A stretch of DNA of 64,000 nt from Bacteroidales bacterium. Its GTDB lineage: Bacteria > Bacteroidota > Bacteroidia > Bacteroidales > F082. How positions within the stretch are numbered: position 1 is the stretch's first letter; each line of letters begins with the position of its first letter. Below, in pieces: positions 4,436-42,080 of the stretch. Under the pieces are notes generated by a model, which saw nothing but the letters and a program-made list of their open reading frames with translations, searched no databases and was not told the DNA's origin. Made by a program: the position numbers and the translations under genes. The stretch is from the NCBI GenBank assembly GCA_017538795.1, contig JAFYIE010000066.1, positions 1 to 64,000 of the forward strand, given 5' to 3'.

Positions 4436-5650
4436 ATGAAAAAAATTACACCGTTTTTGATTTTGTTGTTGTTTCTGGTTTCTTGCGGAGGCGGAAATAA
4501 CGGCGCAGGTAAGAAAGACGCAAAAAAACAAGCTGAGCCGAAGTTTTTGTACGGCATCTGCGTCGATTCGTTGAATGTTGTGGAAGGTCAAGTGCAGAAA
4601 AATGAGTTTCTGGCAAATATTTTGCAAAAAGAAGGTGTGAGCTACAACACCGTCAATTACATCGACAGAAACTGCCGCAAGGTTTTTGACGTGAGGAAGA
4701 TTAAAGTCGGGAACAAATACGTGTTTTTGAAGACGCGCGACAGCATCCCGACAGCCAAATACTGGATTTATGAAATCGACAGGACCAATTACGCTGTTTT
4801 CCAGCTAACCGACTCAATAGCAGCATGGAAAGGCGAAAAAGAAGTCATCACCAAGGTTAAGCATGTGGGCGTAGAGATAAAATCGAGCCTGTGGAACGCT
4901 ATGGCTGAAGCCGGCTGCGACGCGAATCTAATCCTCGAGTTGTCGGACATCTATGCTTGGACCATCGACTTTTTCGACATACAGCAAGGCGACTCATGCA
5001 AAGTCATCTTCGAAGAAAGATATATCGCCGGCGACACCGTTCCATTTGGCATTGGCAATGTTATAGCGTCGTATTTCAAGAACAAGGGCGAAGGCAAATA
5101 CGCTTTCAGCTTTGAGCAGAACGGCAGGAAGGAATATTTCGACGAAAACGGTGACAATTTGCGCAAAGCGTTTTTGAAGGCTCCGCTGAACTACAGGCGT
5201 ATCAGTTCCAAGTTCTCGGAAGCGAGAAAACATCCAGTGCTTAAGATAGTACGTCCGCACCACGGAGTGGATTATGCGGCTCCGAGCGGAACTCCTGTGC
5301 AATCTATCGGCGACGGCACTGTTATCGACAAGGGCTGGGATAAAAAAGGCGGCGGCAATTATTTGAAAATCAAACATAACAGCACATACACGACCACTTA
5401 CATGCACTTGAAGGGCTTTGCCAAAGGCATCTCGAAAGGCTGCAAGGTGAAACAGGGTCAGACGATAGGCTACGTCGGCATGACAGGCACCGCCACCGGA
5501 CCGCATCTCGACTTCCGTCTGCAGAAAAACGGCACCTACATCGACCCGCTGAAGTTCAAGTCGCCGAGTGCGGAACCGGTAAAGAAAGAAAACCTCGAGC
5601 AATACAAGCAAGATATTGCGGTGTTGATGCAAATCTTGAAAGAACATTAG
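4436..5650 (+). CDS. M23-family peptidoglycan endopeptidase lipoprotein
   Basis: The 404-residue protein starts MKKITPFLIL with lipobox LVSC (Cys17), so it is a lipoprotein exported by Sec and lipidated. An N-terminal region of about 250 residues precedes the LytM/M23 fold, which has HHGVDYAAPSG (about 274-284), the TTYMHLKGF strand and GTATGPHLDFR (about 353-363). Family members cleave peptide cross-links in murein. The usual second zinc motif HxH reads HLD here, a variant worth noting; activity is probable but not certain. A bidirectional hairpin follows the stop. Confidence 0.85.
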   Translation: MKKITPFLILLLFLVSCGGGNNGAGKKDAKKQAEPKFLYGICVDSLNVVEGQVQKNEFLANILQKEGVSYNTVNYIDRNCRKVFDVRKIKVGNKYVFLKTRDSIPTAKYWIYEIDRTNYAVFQLTDSIAAWKGEKEVITKVKHVGVEIKSSLWNAMAEAGCDANLILELSDIYAWTIDFFDIQQGDSCKVIFEERYIAGDTVPFGIGNVIASYFKNKGEGKYAFSFEQNGRKEYFDENGDNLRKAFLKAPLNYRRISSKFSEARKHPVLKIVRPHHGVDYAAPSGTPVQSIGDGTVIDKGWDKKGGGNYLKIKHNSTYTTTYMHLKGFAKGISKGCKVKQGQTIGYVGMTGTATGPHLDFRLQKNGTYIDPLKFKSPSAEPVKKENLEQYKQDIAVLMQILKEH

Positions 5651-35084: not shown

Positions 35085-35091
35085 TTTAAAA

Positions 35092-35150
35092 AGTTAGGAG
35101 TTAGAAGTTAGGAGTTAGAAATTAACTACTAACTTCTAACTAACAACTAT
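35092..35150. repeat. Heptad tract AGTTAGN with inverted second half
   Basis: AGTTAGG, AGTTAGA, AGTTAGG, AGTTAGA (35092-35119) is followed by a CTAAC-rich inverse array, so it can fold into a hairpin. It lies between the second peptidase and the CYTH gene and may act as a terminator. Confidence 0.8.
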
Positions 35151-35158
35151 TAAAAAAG

Positions 35159-35616: not shown

Positions 35617-36753
35617 TTATTCTTTTTCTTTAAATCCGTGTTCTTCAACAAACTCCATAGGTGTCATGCCTGTGTTTTTACGGAAGACCGTCTGGAAATA
35701 GCTGCGCGACGCAAAGCCGCAATGTTCGGCGATGTTATCGTTCGACCAGTCGGGATGCGCGAGCATCTGACGTTTTGCCTCTTCCACGCGAAGATAAGTA
35801 AGCCACGGGCTGAACAGCTCCTGTTCAGTATTTTTCAGCCATGCCGAGAATTGATAGCGCGGGATTTTCATTTCATCGGCGGCTATCTGGATGGTTATGC
35901 CGCTACGCAGATGATTGCCGGCCTCGACCCAACGGTTCACGATGGCATCTATGCGATTATGTTCTTCATAAGATAAAGTCACGGTGGCATTATCCTCCGG
36001 CTGCTCCATCTCGTTCTCTTTGACTATTTTATCCATCTCGATCACCCTATGCGCGTCTTTACTCACAACATAGCAGATGAAGCTGATGACAAAAAAGTAA
36101 ATGCACGCGAAGAAGATGAGGGCATAAATTGCCGAAACCCATATCGGACCGAATATCGCCACAGGCAACAGCACCGCTATGACAACAAGAGAAACCACGC
36201 CGACTTCCATCCAGGTGAGCATCTCTGTGACATCATAATCGAAATAGTTATTCAGCGAGCGGCGGATTCTTCGCAGTTCCATCCATTCCTTATAATAATA
36301 AAAGAACTGCATAGCGGCGAATATCACGCTACAGATTGCCACAAGCACACGCATCGATGGAGCATCGCTCCAAATAGGCTCGTCGGCGATGACATGCGCG
36401 ACAATCAGAATCGCTATCATCAGTATCCAAGTATAAAGTCCGATAAATCGCTCAAAAGGTTTGATGCGCCCAATTCGCTGAAGGTTGAGAATAGCCAGAT
36501 TAAAATGCCATGATGCCGGGACAAAAAACAACAAATTGGTCATAACACCGGGCGCCATACCATAATATTCCCGTATCTGAAAAATATATTGAAACAAGAA
36601 ATGGAGGCATATTAATGTCGTTCCGGCTGCCAAAAGGTCTCTGGTGCGTCCAAGCAGCTTATCTTTGATAACTCTGCGAGGCACAGGCAGCACCAATGTC
36701 AATGTAAGCATCAACATCAGCAAAACAGCGAAAAATTGTACTGACTCCATCAT
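35617..36753 (-). CDS. Membrane-anchored AraC-family transcriptional regulator
   Basis: The 378-residue protein has an N-terminal half with about six transmembrane helices (from FFAVLLMLMLTLTLVLP to YALIFFACIYFFVISFICYV). A cytoplasmic linker leads to a C-terminal AraC double helix-turn-helix: QIAADEMKIPRYQFSAWLK, then SNDNIAEHCGFASRSYFQTV and NTGMTPMEFVEEH. The layout suggests a membrane-derived signal controls DNA binding. It is divergent from the beta-helix operon. Phased TTTTAACACC repeats in the shared intergenic region are plausible binding sites (inference). Confidence 0.88.
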   Translation of the reverse strand: MMESVQFFAVLLMLMLTLTLVLPVPRRVIKDKLLGRTRDLLAAGTTLICLHFLFQYIFQIREYYGMAPGVMTNLLFFVPASWHFNLAILNLQRIGRIKPFERFIGLYTWILMIAILIVAHVIADEPIWSDAPSMRVLVAICSVIFAAMQFFYYYKEWMELRRIRRSLNNYFDYDVTEMLTWMEVGVVSLVVIAVLLPVAIFGPIWVSAIYALIFFACIYFFVISFICYVVSKDAHRVIEMDKIVKENEMEQPEDNATVTLSYEEHNRIDAIVNRWVEAGNHLRSGITIQIAADEMKIPRYQFSAWLKNTEQELFSPWLTYLRVEEAKRQMLAHPDWSNDNIAEHCGFASRSYFQTVFRKNTGMTPMEFVEEHGFKEKE

Positions 36754-36761
36754 AACGGGTG

Positions 36762-36769
36762 CAAAAGTA
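36762..36769 (-). promoter_or_regulatory. -7 box of the AraC regulator gene
   Basis: TACTTTTG on the minus strand, eight bases before the ATG at 36753. The leader is very short. Confidence 0.5.
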
Positions 36770-36788
36770 TAAAAAAAACGGACATGTT

Positions 36789-36861
36789 TGTCAAAATTAT
36801 AACAATTTTAACACCTTTTTTTGAAATTTTAAACACCATTGTGTGATTTTTAACACATTAT
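36789..36861 (+). promoter_or_regulatory. Operator-like block, copy 1: three phased TTTTAACACC repeats
   Basis: TTTTAACACC, TTTTAAACACC and TTTTTAACAC recur with start-to-start spacing of about 20-21 bases (two helical turns), ending about 20 bases before a -7 box at 36877. Nearly the same block of about 72 bases recurs at 37031. Direct repeats at this spacing are typical AraC-family sites. Confidence 0.65.
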
Positions 36862-36876
36862 TTTCAATTCATAATA

Positions 36877-36884
36877 TATCTTTG
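36877..36884 (+). promoter_or_regulatory. -7 box of the minimal upstream cassette
   Basis: TATCTTTG just after operator block 1. It would drive a transcript of about 140 nt ending at the terminator at 36992-37029. Confidence 0.5.
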
Positions 36885-36920
36885 CCATGTATTTGAGAAA
36901 ATTGTTAGAGCAAATAAAAT

Positions 36921-36962
36921 ATGATGAAAAATTATATGTCATTAGCAGAAATAAGAAAATAA
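36921..36962 (+). CDS. Possible 13-codon peptide in the minimal cassette
   Basis: ATGATGAAA...AAATAA encodes MMKNYMSLAEIRK. It lies between a promoter and a terminator that are both copies of those flanking the 37188-40636 operon. The stop codon falls at the same position of the duplicated 33-base 3' sequence as the stop of the 81-residue gene. It may be a deletion remnant or a leader peptide. A 28-codon frame from 36887 overlaps it. Confidence 0.25.
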   Translation: MMKNYMSLAEIRK

Positions 36963-36989
36963 TTATTGGTTAATTTAATGAATTTTTCC
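36957..36989 (+). repeat. 33-bp pre-terminator repeat, copy 1
   Basis: AAATAATTATTGGTTAATTT followed by AATGAATTTTTCC. The same 33 bases recur at 40631-40663 with one mismatch, in both cases right after a stop codon and just before a GC-rich hairpin. Confidence 0.9.
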
Positions 36990-36991
36990 CC

Positions 36992-37029
36992 GTGGGGATA
37001 TACGACGCCCGTCGTAATCCCCACTTTTT
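36992..37029 (+). terminator. Terminator of the minimal cassette
   Basis: GTGGGGAT-A-TACGACG, loop CC, CGTCGTA-ATCCCCAC, then TTTTT. Confidence 0.85.
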
Positions 37030-37030
37030 A

Positions 37031-37103
37031 TGTCAAAATTATAACAATTTTAACACCTTGTTATTAGATTTTAAACACCATTGCATGATTTTTAACACCT
37101 TAT
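37031..37103 (+). promoter_or_regulatory. Operator-like block, copy 2
   Basis: The block beginning TGTCAAAATTATAACAATTT repeats copy 1 (36789) with few differences and keeps all three phased TTTTAACACC-type repeats. It ends about 16 bases before the -7 box of the beta-helix operon. Confidence 0.65.
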
Positions 37104-37118
37104 GTTTTTTTTATATTC

Positions 37119-37126
37119 TACTTTTG
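37119..37126 (+). promoter_or_regulatory. -7 box of the beta-helix T9SS operon
   Basis: TACTTTTG, 61 bases before the ATG at 37188 and downstream of operator block 2. Confidence 0.6.
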
Positions 37127-37187
37127 CGACTCGAAAATTCAAACGAAAATTAAAAACGAACAGGAAAAAAATTAAATCAAACCAACA

Positions 37188-40100
37188 ATGAAAAATTCAT
37201 TAAAATTAACTCTGGCATTGATTTTAACATTCTGCGCCATTTCGCTATGGGCAGGAAACACTGGCCGGGCCTACTCGTGGGACGGCGAAGGGACTCAACA
37301 GAACCCGTACATTATTATGAATGATGAACAGTTTCTGCTGCTCGCCAATTTAGTAAACGCTGGCGACACAGAAGTTTCCCACTCATACTTCAAACTCGGC
37401 GCGGACATCACATTCGGTACCGAACAAGAGCCTGACACCACAATGGTAGGCTTCTCAAAAAGCCGCAGATTCTACGGCCACTTCGACGGCGACGGCCACA
37501 CCCTCAACGTTTACATGGTTCGTGACAAAAATTTCGCTGCACCATTCGGCATCGCTGATGGCTCAACATTCACCAACCTCAACGTCGAAGGCACCATCAT
37601 TACCGACCATAAGTTTGCAGGCGGTATCGCTTCATACGTCTACGGAAAGAACAACGGTCCTGTTAACGTTACCAACTGCAACAGCAACATCCATATCATC
37701 AGCAACGTCACCGTCCCTTCAAACCACGACGGCACACACGCAGGATTTGTAGGTCAGTGCGAAGAAGGCACCATCAACTTTGAAAACTGCGTCTTCACAG
37801 GCAGCATCATCGACCCTGTCGAGCCTCACCAGACCATCAAATGCGCCGGATTCCTCGGATGGGTCAACAACACGGCCAACTACACCAGATGCTTGCAAGC
37901 CGGAACAATCGACGTTGAATCATACATGGCTACATTCCAACGCAATAAAAAAGGCGCGTCGATTAATTATACAAACGCCTACTACATCAACGGATTCAAC
38001 GACAATCAAGGCACACAGGCATTAGGCATAGTGCCTGACAGCACCATCGTTAGGAGATACCTTATAAACACAACACCATATTACATTCCAGGCGTTGAAA
38101 TATCAGGCATCTACGGATATTATTATACTGATGGCAATCCTGTCACTGTGGCACCTGTAGTGACATATTTCAGCAATGAACTTATCGAAGGCAACGACTA
38201 CACTGTCACTTTCAAAATCAAGAACGGCGATGTGTACAACACCGTGACACAAGTAACAGAAGCCGGCGACTATAAGATCAAAATTGAAGGCGCAGGCGAT
38301 TACACAGGCACATACACCGACACATTCAGAGTTATAGCAATAACCAACGACTGGGTTGAGTTGCAGAGCTTATTAGACGCCGACGGTACAGTGGTCCTGA
38401 ACAAAAACTACATCGCCAACAGTGACGATGAGGCTTTGATAGTCAATGGCGACGTGACAATCGACATGAACAGCCACATCATCGACCGCGCCGTGAATGT
38501 AGCCAAAGAAGACGGCTACGTCATCAAAGTCAACAAAAACGCTTCGCTTACCATCATCGACAACAGTAAGGATAAAGCCAACGCCATCACCGGCGGTAAC
38601 ACCATCGGAAACGGCGGCGGCATCTATAACGAAGGCAAATTAACCATTGAAAATCTAAATATAAGCGGTAACAGAACCATCCGCAACTCTAAAGTCTACG
38701 GAACCGGCGCCGGCATCTACTCAACAGGTACTCTGTTGATGACAAACTGCAACGTTAGCGATAACGTTGGTGACGGTGGCGGCGGCGGTATCCATGCTTT
38801 AGGAGGACTCACCATCTCTGGCGGTAGCGTAAGCGACAACAAAACATTCAGCAAAGGCGCTGGCATCCGCGTAACAGGAAAGAACTCTACCATCACCGAC
38901 TGCGTCATCACAAACAACAGCATAATTACCGGTGCTAACATAAAGAACGGCGGCGGCATCTACGTCGACGGCTCAAACGGCGCAATCGTCCTTACTATTA
39001 CAAGATGCACCATCACCAACAACACAGCAATTGAAAACGGCGGCGGCATCTACGTGATGAACAGCAGCGTAATAGCTAAAGACTGTACGATTTCAAATAA
39101 CAGCGCCAGTTTAGGCAACGATATCTACCTCTATCAAAACTGCACCATAAACATTGAAGGTAGCACAACGACGACCAACACAAGCGCAAACGATATCTTC
39201 GCTTACTCCAACGCACAAGTCATCGTCCCTACAAACTCAACATTCCTGGCAACAGTCCAGAATAACACCATAACATGGAACGCAGATCATAAGACTGGCT
39301 GGAGCCCGATATCTTCTCCAATAGAAAACCAACTCTTCGAAAATGTAACAAACCTGCAGTCAGCAATACATAACATCTATCGTTATGACGCTGAAAGCAC
39401 CGTGTGGCAGGAATACAGAGACGGACACAACTTATTCGATAGATTTGAGACAGGCCGCGGATATCTGTACCGCAGAGCCTCAGCGGCAACCATCACATAC
39501 TCAGGCACCCTCAACAGCGGTGATGTAAGTTACGACCTGGCCTACACCGAAGGCAACGATTTGAAGTCATACAACCTCATCGGAAATCCTTACTCACACA
39601 CTATTTATAAAGGTGTCAACATTTCCAACGACTTCCTCGAGGAGAAATATTGCTTACTCAACACCGACGGCACATGGCAAGTGATGGACGACAGCGAAGC
39701 CATCCCTGTGGGAACAGCCATCCTCGTCCAGGCTACAGCAGCCAAGACATTGAAGATCACCAACGAAGGCACTTCCTCTAAAGAACGTTCAAACAACGAC
39801 AACATCTGGTTTACAGTCTCCAACAACGAGTTCAAAGATGTGGCTTGCATCGAGTTCAAGAATGGTCACGGATTCAACAAGGTGGCTCACCGCAACGAAG
39901 ACGCTCCTATGCTCTACATCAACCACAACGGCGAAAACTTCGCGTCGGTCGACATGAGCGACGACACCGATCTGATAAATCTTAATTTCAAGACCAACAA
40001 AACAGGCAAATTCACCTTGAGTTACAAAGCAAACGGCATGTTCAACTACCTGCATCTCATCGACAGACTGACAGGAGCTGATGTCGACTTGCTCCTCGAC

Positions 40101-40394
40101 GAAGAATATTCATTCATCGCGTCATCCAAAGATGATGAATCAAGATTTATCGTCCGCATGAACTATCAGGGCGCTCCAAGCAACTCCGACGATCACTTCG
40201 CTTACCAAAACGGCAACGACATCATCGTCAACGGCGAAGGCACACTGCAAATATTCGACATGACAGGACGCTTGGTTTCTACAGCCAACGTACAAGGCGT
40301 TGAGACGATGTGCACGTCATCTATGCAGACAGGCCTCTACATCTTCAGATTGATCGGAAATGAAATTAAAACTCAGAAAATTATTGTCAGATGA
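37188..40394 (+). CDS. Large T9SS-exported beta-helix adhesin-like protein
   Basis: The 1068-residue protein opens with signal peptide MKNSLKLTLALILTFCAISLWA. A GLUG/adhesin-like N-terminal region (WDGEGTQQNPYIIMNDEQF, TNLNVEGTII) comes first. An Ig/MBG-like module (about 300-385) follows. A right-handed parallel beta-helix spans about 400-680, with recurring GGGIY rungs (NGGGIYNEG, NGGGIYVDG, NGGGIYVMN). The C-terminal T9SS sorting domain reads GTLQIFDMTGRLVSTANV to QKIIVR. No catalytic motif is evident, so binding or adhesion is the likely role. It overlaps the next gene by four bases. Confidence 0.88.
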   Translation: MKNSLKLTLALILTFCAISLWAGNTGRAYSWDGEGTQQNPYIIMNDEQFLLLANLVNAGDTEVSHSYFKLGADITFGTEQEPDTTMVGFSKSRRFYGHFDGDGHTLNVYMVRDKNFAAPFGIADGSTFTNLNVEGTIITDHKFAGGIASYVYGKNNGPVNVTNCNSNIHIISNVTVPSNHDGTHAGFVGQCEEGTINFENCVFTGSIIDPVEPHQTIKCAGFLGWVNNTANYTRCLQAGTIDVESYMATFQRNKKGASINYTNAYYINGFNDNQGTQALGIVPDSTIVRRYLINTTPYYIPGVEISGIYGYYYTDGNPVTVAPVVTYFSNELIEGNDYTVTFKIKNGDVYNTVTQVTEAGDYKIKIEGAGDYTGTYTDTFRVIAITNDWVELQSLLDADGTVVLNKNYIANSDDEALIVNGDVTIDMNSHIIDRAVNVAKEDGYVIKVNKNASLTIIDNSKDKANAITGGNTIGNGGGIYNEGKLTIENLNISGNRTIRNSKVYGTGAGIYSTGTLLMTNCNVSDNVGDGGGGGIHALGGLTISGGSVSDNKTFSKGAGIRVTGKNSTITDCVITNNSIITGANIKNGGGIYVDGSNGAIVLTITRCTITNNTAIENGGGIYVMNSSVIAKDCTISNNSASLGNDIYLYQNCTINIEGSTTTTNTSANDIFAYSNAQVIVPTNSTFLATVQNNTITWNADHKTGWSPISSPIENQLFENVTNLQSAIHNIYRYDAESTVWQEYRDGHNLFDRFETGRGYLYRRASAATITYSGTLNSGDVSYDLAYTEGNDLKSYNLIGNPYSHTIYKGVNISNDFLEEKYCLLNTDGTWQVMDDSEAIPVGTAILVQATAAKTLKITNEGTSSKERSNNDNIWFTVSNNEFKDVACIEFKNGHGFNKVAHRNEDAPMLYINHNGENFASVDMSDDTDLINLNFKTNKTGKFTLSYKANGMFNYLHLIDRLTGADVDLLLDEEYSFIASSKDDESRFIVRMNYQGAPSNSDDHFAYQNGNDIIVNGEGTLQIFDMTGRLVSTANVQGVETMCTSSMQTGLYIFRLIGNEIKTQKIIVR

Positions 40395-40636
40395 AAAAAA
40401 TATTAATTACAATCGCATTTATAATAATGGGCCTTTGCGCCAGTGCTCAAAGTGATGGTTTCTTCAGTGGCTGGAGCGACGGCGGTGACCGCACACTAAA
40501 CAATTCTTCAACACTTATTGCGCCAGTCTCACCTATCGGCTCAGAGACAAACGAAAATGTTCCTACCGGCAGCGGTTTGCTTATCATGACCGCTATCGGC
40601 GCATGCTATGCAATTAAAAAGAGAAAAAGTAAATAA
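40391..40636 (+). CDS. Small secreted protein with C-terminal P-x-G-S-G / TM / basic-tail signal
   Basis: The 81-residue protein has signal peptide MKKILITIAFIIMGLCASAQ, then SDGFFSGWSDGGDR and a short polar linker. It ends VPTGSGLLIMTAIGACYAIKKRKSK: a short motif, one hydrophobic helix and a basic tail. That tripartite ending looks like a membrane-retention or sorting signal analogous in layout to PEP-CTERM or LPXTG tails, but with a different motif. Its ATG overlaps the stop of the beta-helix gene (ATGA), so translation is coupled and the two products probably act together. Confidence 0.75.
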   Translation: MKKILITIAFIIMGLCASAQSDGFFSGWSDGGDRTLNNSSTLIAPVSPIGSETNENVPTGSGLLIMTAIGACYAIKKRKSK

Positions 40637-40663
40637 TTATTGGTTAATTTAATGAATCTTTCC
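40631..40663 (+). repeat. 33-bp pre-terminator repeat, copy 2
   Basis: 32 of 33 bases match 36957-36989. It lies at the stop codon of the 81-residue gene and leads into the terminator hairpin. Confidence 0.9.
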
Positions 40664-40705
40664 GTAGGGGGGAAGCCACGCCCGTGGCTCCCCCTTACAA
40701 TTTTT
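40664..40705. terminator. Bidirectional terminator
   Basis: GTAGGGGGGAAGCCACG (40664-40680), loop CC, CGTGGCTCCCCCTTAC (40683-40698), then T-rich sequence. It separates the beta-helix operon from the convergent YitT gene. Confidence 0.85.
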
Positions 40706-41588: not shown

Positions 41589-41668
41589 GATTTTATCATT
41601 TTCAGGATGCAAAGTTATAAATATTTTCAAATATTTGCAACCAAAAATGAAAAATCCCTTGGAAATCG

Positions 41669-41753
41669 TACCTGAGGCCGGGGTCGAACCGGCACGTCCA
41701 CAATGGACACAGGATTTTAAGTCCGGCGCGTCTACCGATTCCGCCACTCAGGC
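41669..41753 (-). tRNA. tRNA-Leu (TAA anticodon)
   Basis: 85-nt cloverleaf with a long variable arm (class II). Acceptor GCCTGAG pairs with CTCAGGT (one G-U). The D arm is GGCGGAATCGGTAGACGC. The anticodon loop ACTTAAAATC gives TAA. The T arm is GCCGGTTCGACCCCGGC. CCA is not encoded. It is downstream of two tRNA-Gly genes, probably in one transcript. Confidence 0.95.
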
Positions 41754-41766
41754 ACTTATATCTTAG

Positions 41767-41837
<71 letters not shown>

Positions 41838-41839
<2 letters not shown>

Positions 41840-41861
41840 AAATTTTGCTAGCAAAATTTGC
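41838..41861. repeat. 24-bp perfect palindrome at the tRNA-Gly 5' end
   Basis: GCAAATTTTGCTAGCAAAAT followed by TTGC. Its first bases are the first two bases of the tRNA and its last two begin the 71-nt spacer element. A 23-bp counterpart (GCAATTTTT...AAAAATTGC) sits at 42079-42101. Confidence 0.9.
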
Positions 41862-41930
41862 GGCTTTTCTTCGCGACTCGGCATTGCTCAAGCGAGCTTG
41901 GCACTGCACTCGCTGCTCAGAAAAGTCCGC
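41860..41930 (-). repeat. 71-nt tRNA-spacer hairpin element, copy 1
   Basis: On the minus strand it runs from GCGGACTTTTCTGAGCAGCG to CGAGTCGCGAAGAAAAGCCG plus C. Outer stem GCGG-A-CTTTTCT pairs with AGAAAAG-CCGC. The central hairpin is CAAGC-TC-GCTTG. Single-stranded segments GAGCAGCGAG and GCCGAGTCG are shared with copy 2. Stems differ from copy 2 by compensatory changes. Confidence 0.8.
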
Positions 41931-42007
41931 ACTCCTTCTATTGAAGGTCATCGTAGTACTAATATGCTACGAGAATTTTGCAGCTTTAATTCTTTCAAAG
42001 AACTTTG

Positions 42008-42078
<71 letters not shown>

Positions 42079-42080
<2 letters not shown>

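Follow-up and report, generated by a model that had tools for sequence, protein, structure and literature searches.

A putative surface-protein regulon with a cassette best read as gutted at the locus of its predicted membrane-anchored AraC-type regulator in a Bacteroidales genome

In the Bacteroidales assembly GCA_017538795.1 we analysed a window of 64,000 nucleotides (nt), that is, the whole stretch from position 1 to 64,000 of contig JAFYIE010000066.1, in which a gene encoding an AraC-type regulator lies beside a doubled control region and a gene encoding a large protein with a sorting domain of the type IX secretion system (T9SS). The window is contig C118 of a genome of 2.48 Mb in 122 contigs, estimated to be 93.5% complete and 6.6% contaminated. 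We consider it quite probable that this locus is the home site of a surface-protein regulon run by a membrane-anchored AraC protein, and that the first of its cassettes has been gutted. The AraC protein would sit in the inner membrane, respond to a signal and bind three direct TTTTAACACC-like boxes and an inverted half-site placed just upstream of a TAnnTTTG promoter, and this binding would turn on cassettes that pair a T9SS surface protein with a small secreted one. At the locus itself, two cassettes would once have stood in tandem; the payload of the first appears to have been lost in the window, leaving the operator, the promoter, a short decayed spacer, the end repeat and a hairpin, and a relative of the lost payload, with its own operator, would persist on contig C17 of the same genome.

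The doubling of the operator block and promoter described in the initial annotation proved to be real, and the coordinates given were accurate to within a few bases. The control block at 36789-36885 recurs at 37031-37127 with 84% identity over 97 nt. The pattern of paired boxes, with up to three mismatches allowed, was matched five times in the window against 0.06 expected in shuffled sequences. The terminal repeat, first given as 33 bp, is indeed present at both ends but is 40 nt long, with 93% identity between the copies, and the 13-codon frame that had been placed in front of the first hairpin was also found by reading. Both hairpins (approximately 36992-37024 and 40667-40694) were located by reading, the first being present also in the computed RNA fold, and their label as terminators is suggested by shape and position. 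Bacteroidetes promoters are unlike the sigma-70 type, for which reason a sigma-70-type promoter scan (22 sites against 7.0 expected in this AT-rich stretch) was set aside; for the AraC gene itself we take TATACTTTTGCA to be the likely -7 element, from the Bacteroidetes -7 consensus. The features of the locus are:

35617-36753, minus strand: AraC-family regulator of 378 amino acids, with N-terminal hydrophobic segments and a C-terminal HTH_18 domain.
36760-36771, minus strand: likely -7 element of the AraC gene's own promoter, TATACTTTTGCA, found by reading.
36789-36857, plus strand: operator 1, with a degenerate inverted half-site (36789-36798) and boxes at 36806-36815, 36828-36837 and 36848-36857.
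36875-36884, plus strand: putative -7 element of promoter 1, TATATCTTTG, read from the sequence and lined up across sites.
36886-36962, plus strand: interior of the putatively gutted first cassette, including the 13-codon frame (36921-36962, by reading).
36950-36989, plus strand: terminal repeat, copy 1.
36992-37029, plus strand: terminator-like hairpin 1 with a T run; a similar hairpin occurs in the related genomes G061 and G113.
37031-37099, plus strand: operator 2, with half-site (37031-37040) and boxes at 37048-37057, 37070-37079 and 37090-37099.
37119-37126, plus strand: putative -7 element of promoter 2, TACTTTTG, read and lined up in the same way.
37188-40394, plus strand: secreted protein of 1068 amino acids, with a T9SS type A sorting domain (TIGR04183) at residues 1010-1068.
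40391-40636, plus strand: small secreted protein of 81 amino acids (DGFF ... PTGSGLLIMT ... KKRK), member of a genus-wide family.
40624-40663, plus strand: terminal repeat, copy 2.
40667-40694, plus strand: terminator-like hairpin 2, by reading.

The evidence for a gutted cassette comes from the same locus in two close species, represented by genomes G061 and G113. The three loci have in common two C1 peptidase genes, a CYTH gene, the AraC gene and a YitT gene. In G061 the AraC gene is followed by operator 1, a gene for a T9SS protein of 783 amino acids, a small-protein gene, the end repeat and hairpin 1, and then by operator 2, a gene for a T9SS protein of 1073 amino acids, the end repeat and hairpin 2, and YitT. 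In G113 the AraC gene and operator 1 are followed by a spacer of about 40 nt, with repeat and hairpin 1 behind it. Operator 2 then precedes the genes for a T9SS protein of 768 amino acids, a small protein and a T9SS protein of 1158 amino acids, and after these come repeat and hairpin 2 and YitT. In the window, operator 1 is separated by a spacer of about 77 nt from repeat and hairpin 1 (both spacer lengths include the stop codon), after which come operator 2, the T9SS protein of 1068 amino acids, the small protein, repeat and hairpin 2, and YitT. All six end repeats share ATTGGTTRATTTAATGA, which was found nowhere else in the 155 loci searched, and hairpin 1 varies little between the three species. 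Since a full payload sits in G061 between operator 1 and the matching end repeat and hairpin, the empty unit is best read as the gutted cassette of a surface-protein gene, and of the three possibilities raised in the initial annotation (internal-deletion remnant, regulatory short RNA or modular cassette) the first is the best supported. The direction of the change would be loss, because the codons before the end repeat in G113 match the 3' end of the G061 small gene (the best of five comparisons, with 4 of 100 shuffles as good) and such codons are unexpected in a unit that was never filled.

The same codons bear on a different history, in which the doubled block would be a recent local duplication of the control region alone that never carried a payload. 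The two blocks of the window are alike at 81 of 97 positions, compared with 72 to 80 in four orthologous pairs between species, and the corresponding pairs within G061 (75) and G113 (76) are lower, as a recent duplication in the window would have it. This history is nevertheless improbable in our view, given that the empty unit has its own end repeat and hairpin, like those behind the full payload of G061, besides the 3' codons resembling the small gene that are retained in G113.

For a regulatory short RNA the comparison gave no positive evidence, the spacers of 77 and 40 nt being different and their short frames coding for different peptides. In its more precise form this proposal holds that the first unit is an AraC-driven RNA of about 100-140 nt acting as a decoy or sponge for a binder of the shared 3' end of the cassettes, and we regard it as very unlikely. 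Operator, -7 element, end repeat and hairpin have been kept in both the window and G113, and the 142-nt stretch folds with a z of -4.9, for which the terminator hairpin alone could account. The spacers differ in length as well as in sequence, G061 has no empty unit at this locus, and a search of Rfam gave no match at E<=1. The comparison of sequences thus lends no support to a function of the empty unit beyond its control region, end repeat and hairpin.

There are several points that weigh against the gutted-cassette reading. When compared with five intact cassettes, the window spacer matched none of them significantly (between 25 and 89 of 100 shuffles did as well), and for this reason the point of the deletion cannot be located. 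An empty unit is seen in two of the three close species, which could mean function and not decay, and the neighbouring genes leave undecided which two of the three species are the closest and hence the order of events. A small protein is missing behind both the second cassette of G061 and the second T9SS gene in G113. Finally, a simple terminator scan listed neither hairpin, returning only six minus-strand sites against 4.6 expected.

The persistence of the remnant could be explained if operator 1 had survived only as a control site of the divergent AraC gene and the sequence from promoter 1 through hairpin 1 were inert. This is compatible with the loss of a payload, and we give it slightly less than an even chance. 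In the window, G061 and G113 alike, the AraC start is 52-54 nt away from the first box, and the half-site overlaps, by eye, the likely -33 region of the AraC gene. Against this, the operator of genome G022 is 603 nt from the AraC gene with other sequence between them, and the operator is retained at distant sites where the stretch retrieved contains no AraC gene.

Contig C17 of the same genome carries the operator block in front of genes for a T9SS protein of 780 amino acids and a small protein of 81 amino acids. This T9SS protein is 75% (G061) and 72% (G113) identical, over nearly its full length, to the first-type T9SS proteins of these genomes, and about 55% identical to the 1068-residue protein of the window over the C-terminal 397 residues. 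Moreover, its small protein is 76% identical to the one behind the 783-residue payload of G061. At the sites of G061 and G113 that match C17, other genes are found and the operator is absent. Relocation of the payload together with its operator and duplication followed by differential loss would both fit, with a tentative preference for the former. The idea of a modular cassette finds partial support, in that operator and terminal repeat flank different payloads at this locus in three species and that a relative of the payload stands behind an operator on C17; the two elements occur together at this locus only, the terminal repeat being confined to it among the 155 loci, and elsewhere only operator and payload recur. 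The second end repeat of the window resembles the first repeats in its left part and the second repeats in its right part, at two or three positions, which is a hint of recombination within the repeat. It is conceivable, if rather unlikely, that the AraC locus is an expression site with a fixed membrane-sensor regulator, where recombination in standing pairs of operator and end repeat would load surface-protein cassettes, copy them out and dispose of them.

The regulator passes the HTH_18 model (PF12833) with 58.8 bits against a cut-off of 33.6 (E 6.6e-16), and the AraC-family profile matched 18 sequences in PDB, all within the helix-turn-helix (HTH) part (positions 274-370). The AraC assignment of the initial annotation therefore stands, while the membrane part is a prediction from five hydrophobic segments by Kyte-Doolittle (5-6 in all six proteins examined); the protein is probably membrane-anchored. 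The AraC proteins of G061 and G113 are 85% alike. Those of the window and G061 are only 55% identical, the figure being 49% for the hydrophobic part and 80% for the HTH part. Between these same two genomes five neighbouring proteins are 87-96% identical and RpoA, encoded elsewhere in the genome, is 100% identical; fast divergence is seen also in the 1068-residue protein (68%) and in a 518-residue protein on contig C24 (62%). The sensor part may thus drift or be exchanged, with the DNA-binding part and the operator staying fixed.

The operator consists of three TTTTAACACC-like boxes at 0, +22 and +42, that is, in steps of 22 and 20 nt. An inverted half-site, weak in the window, stands in front of them, and the TAnnTTTG-like promoter behind them keeps an almost constant distance. 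Class II promoters of AraC-family activators have direct repeats about two helical turns apart, with the last box next to the promoter. The window operator is similar in its direct repeats and in the position of the last box, and differs in having three boxes and an inverted half-site, a fixed 22/20 spacing and a Bacteroidetes-type promoter. From the box position and the class II layout, activation seems a better guess than repression.

A search with the box pattern, allowing up to three mismatches, found the operator in 6 of 99 genomes of the genus, at 14 sites, with no site for the reversed pattern used as control. At twelve of these sites the gene that follows encodes a T9SS protein, a small protein or, judged by eye, a fused version, and two sites are empty. 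In the window's own genome the block is found, besides C17, on C24 before genes for a small protein of 89 amino acids and the 518-residue protein. The occurrence of the operator at distant loci looks like a regulon, for which the self-contained surface-display module of the initial annotation is too narrow a description.

Operator and AraC protein were also searched in the same 60 genomes of the genus. An AraC match at E<=1e-10 was found in 13 of them, and the five with a match at E<1e-100 are exactly the five with the operator; these genomes are related, and no probability is claimed for the agreement. Genome G113, outside this set, has both gene and operator. In a hand-chosen alignment of 15 AraC proteins the second recognition helix splits by operator presence: it reads CGFx[ST]R[ST]YFQT in all ten operator-linked proteins and CGI-SRSxFQRV in the five others, and an eleventh operator-linked protein outside the alignment, from Prevotella communis, has CGFSDRSYFQT.

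An exact scan of 84,980 named species genomes (a collection from which the window's own genome was possibly excluded) gave 17 stretches, eight from metagenome-assembled genomes (MAGs) titled Bacteroidales and nine from Prevotella or Prevotellaceae, namely P. ruminicola KHT3, P. communis E15-14 and three MAGs. The source was named for four stretches, and all were ruminants (sheep, yak, red deer and goat). With up to three mismatches, five Prevotella genomes contained 12 operator sites and no control site. A similar AraC gene lies beside the operator in five of the nine Prevotella stretches (L123, L124, L130, L134 and L136); the operators of L133 to L137 head a long frame, and the frame in L124 is truncated where the stretch ends. 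Three such AraC genes are present in P. communis, and each of them adjoins a 22/20-spaced operator, the boxes differing between paralogs; two of these operators were found only with one and three mismatches allowed. In the P. communis loci L148 and L149 the paralogous AraC gene faces a large secreted-looking gene across the same-spaced operator, the boxes being altered (TTCTTACACC; TTTAGACACC) and the recognition helices as well.

Some of these results do not agree with a simple regulon. The cut-off of E<1e-100 was chosen after the data had been seen, and five further genomes have AraC matches of about 1e-65 to 1e-75 (37-40% identity) without this operator; the remaining three of the 13 have fragment or weak matches. 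Some Prevotella sites lack a large target. In L123 and L130 the operator heads a membrane-protein-like frame, and an operator-like site with one mismatch in a P. ruminicola genome (L147, 1501-1552) has no clear target nearby. In L122 of P. ruminicola (5316-5640) a signal peptide with a short tail is, by eye, all that follows the operator, and this site appears to be another surface-protein gene that has been gutted. The sole Prevotella target scanned in NCBIfam, of 1199 amino acids, has no type A T9SS tail, and T9SS cargo as a target is accordingly shown for the window's genus only.

Triple boxes were also sought before five AraC genes of the second group. In G065 (L104, 5615-5966) 22/20-spaced TTAAGACAA-like boxes were seen in the intergenic region beside the gene (3 of 200 shuffles as good), and none were found before the genes of G015 and G042 (21 and 24 of 200 shuffles as good). 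AT-rich repeats in G067 and G054 (4 and 1 of 200 shuffles), next to AraC genes with no T9SS neighbour, were not accepted as operators. In G022 (L075, 4717-5270) the sequence between AraC gene and operator resembles, by eye, a small toxin-antitoxin pair.

The gene for the 1068-residue protein is sound, and its annotation as T9SS cargo is supported by the NCBIfam type A model (TIGR04183, 34.7 bits against 23), the Pfam T9SS model being below its cut-off (23.3 against 27). TIGR04183 was also passed by all six further cassette proteins scanned, from the own genome, G061, G113 and G013 (the proteins of G022 and G051 were outside the scan). The beta-helix label is less secure, the models lying just under the cut-off in the window protein (18.7 against 19.45; Pfam 19.4 against 20.6), but the G061 ortholog passes one of them. 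The T9SS gene sprA is present in the genome (SprA_N, 565.9 bits) and in none of 14 control genomes, sprA being the one T9SS gene searched.

The coupled small protein of the initial annotation has a sound frame of 81 residues, overlapping the 1068-residue gene by 4 nt. The small proteins of the window, C17 and C24 are relatives that share DGFF close to the mature start and a terminal P-x-GSGL...GA-x-YA...K. A family profile built from these three sequences gave 22 matches in the own genome at E<=0.1, and at E<=0.01 it found members in 27 of 40 genomes, comprising the own genome with 19 matches, the 23 others of the genus without exception and, weakly, 3 of 16 others of the order. A motif filter, which missed at least one member (in G113), retrieved 34 distinct small proteins from the fetched loci; 32 of them have 300 nt or more of upstream sequence, and of these 21 begin no more than 180 nt behind a gene with a T9SS tail and 11 do not. 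Where complete, members have 81-107 amino acids (window 40391-40636; loci L010-L018 and L031-L058). Profile matches also start larger frames of about 925, 607 and 562 amino acids and, by eye, one of 675; a provisional "FISUMP-like" label for these fusions was dropped, as none of three Pfam scans gave such a match, and one of the three gave a beta-helix repeat. The window's small protein itself has no Pfam or NCBIfam match over cut-off and is below the LPXTG-type anchor model TIGR01167 (14.1 bits against 15.9), and the family profile found nothing in PDB at E<=1. Around the other family copies, the own-genome stretches contained no operator reaching 24 of 30 positions, and therefore the regulon would cover only part of the family.

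In the surroundings of the locus, an imperfect 33-nt inverted repeat (82% complementary, 5-nt loop) lies at 35085-35155 between the C1 peptidase and CYTH genes. The minus strand carries three tRNA genes (Leu, Gly, Gly) at 41668-42080, and the longest start of the YitT frame (41747) runs into the first of them.

The window protein resembles other T9SS type A cargo in its C-terminal sorting domain and in the presence of sprA in the genome, and differs in being coupled to a small secreted protein and an AraC-linked operator. In the passages available of a T9SS review AraC is not mentioned (no occurrences; PMC10202324), and in the open-licence literature no title pointed to a membrane AraC protein for T9SS cargo, which does not prove absence. 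TfoS of Vibrio cholerae is counted, in passages of two papers, among the membrane-integrated one-component systems (PMC5936718) and the AraC-family regulators (PMC8248653). The regulator described here can be likened to it, by description only, as an AraC-family protein predicted to act from the membrane directly on DNA; host and targets are different, and here there are several hydrophobic segments and T9SS surface-protein targets.

For the T9SS surface proteins of an uncultured Bacteroidales genus, our analysis puts forward concrete candidates for regulator and operator and a list of candidate targets. The operator, being shared with named strains of P. ruminicola and P. communis, is testable there. 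The linked split of recognition helix and operator offers a natural set for decoding AraC specificity, and the small secreted family, with its many copies in a genome and its frequent place just behind T9SS cargo genes, may be a part of surface display so far undescribed. If the locus were indeed an expression site, it would connect new inputs to a repertoire of exchangeable surface proteins, and this in two or more distinct groups of gut Bacteroidales.

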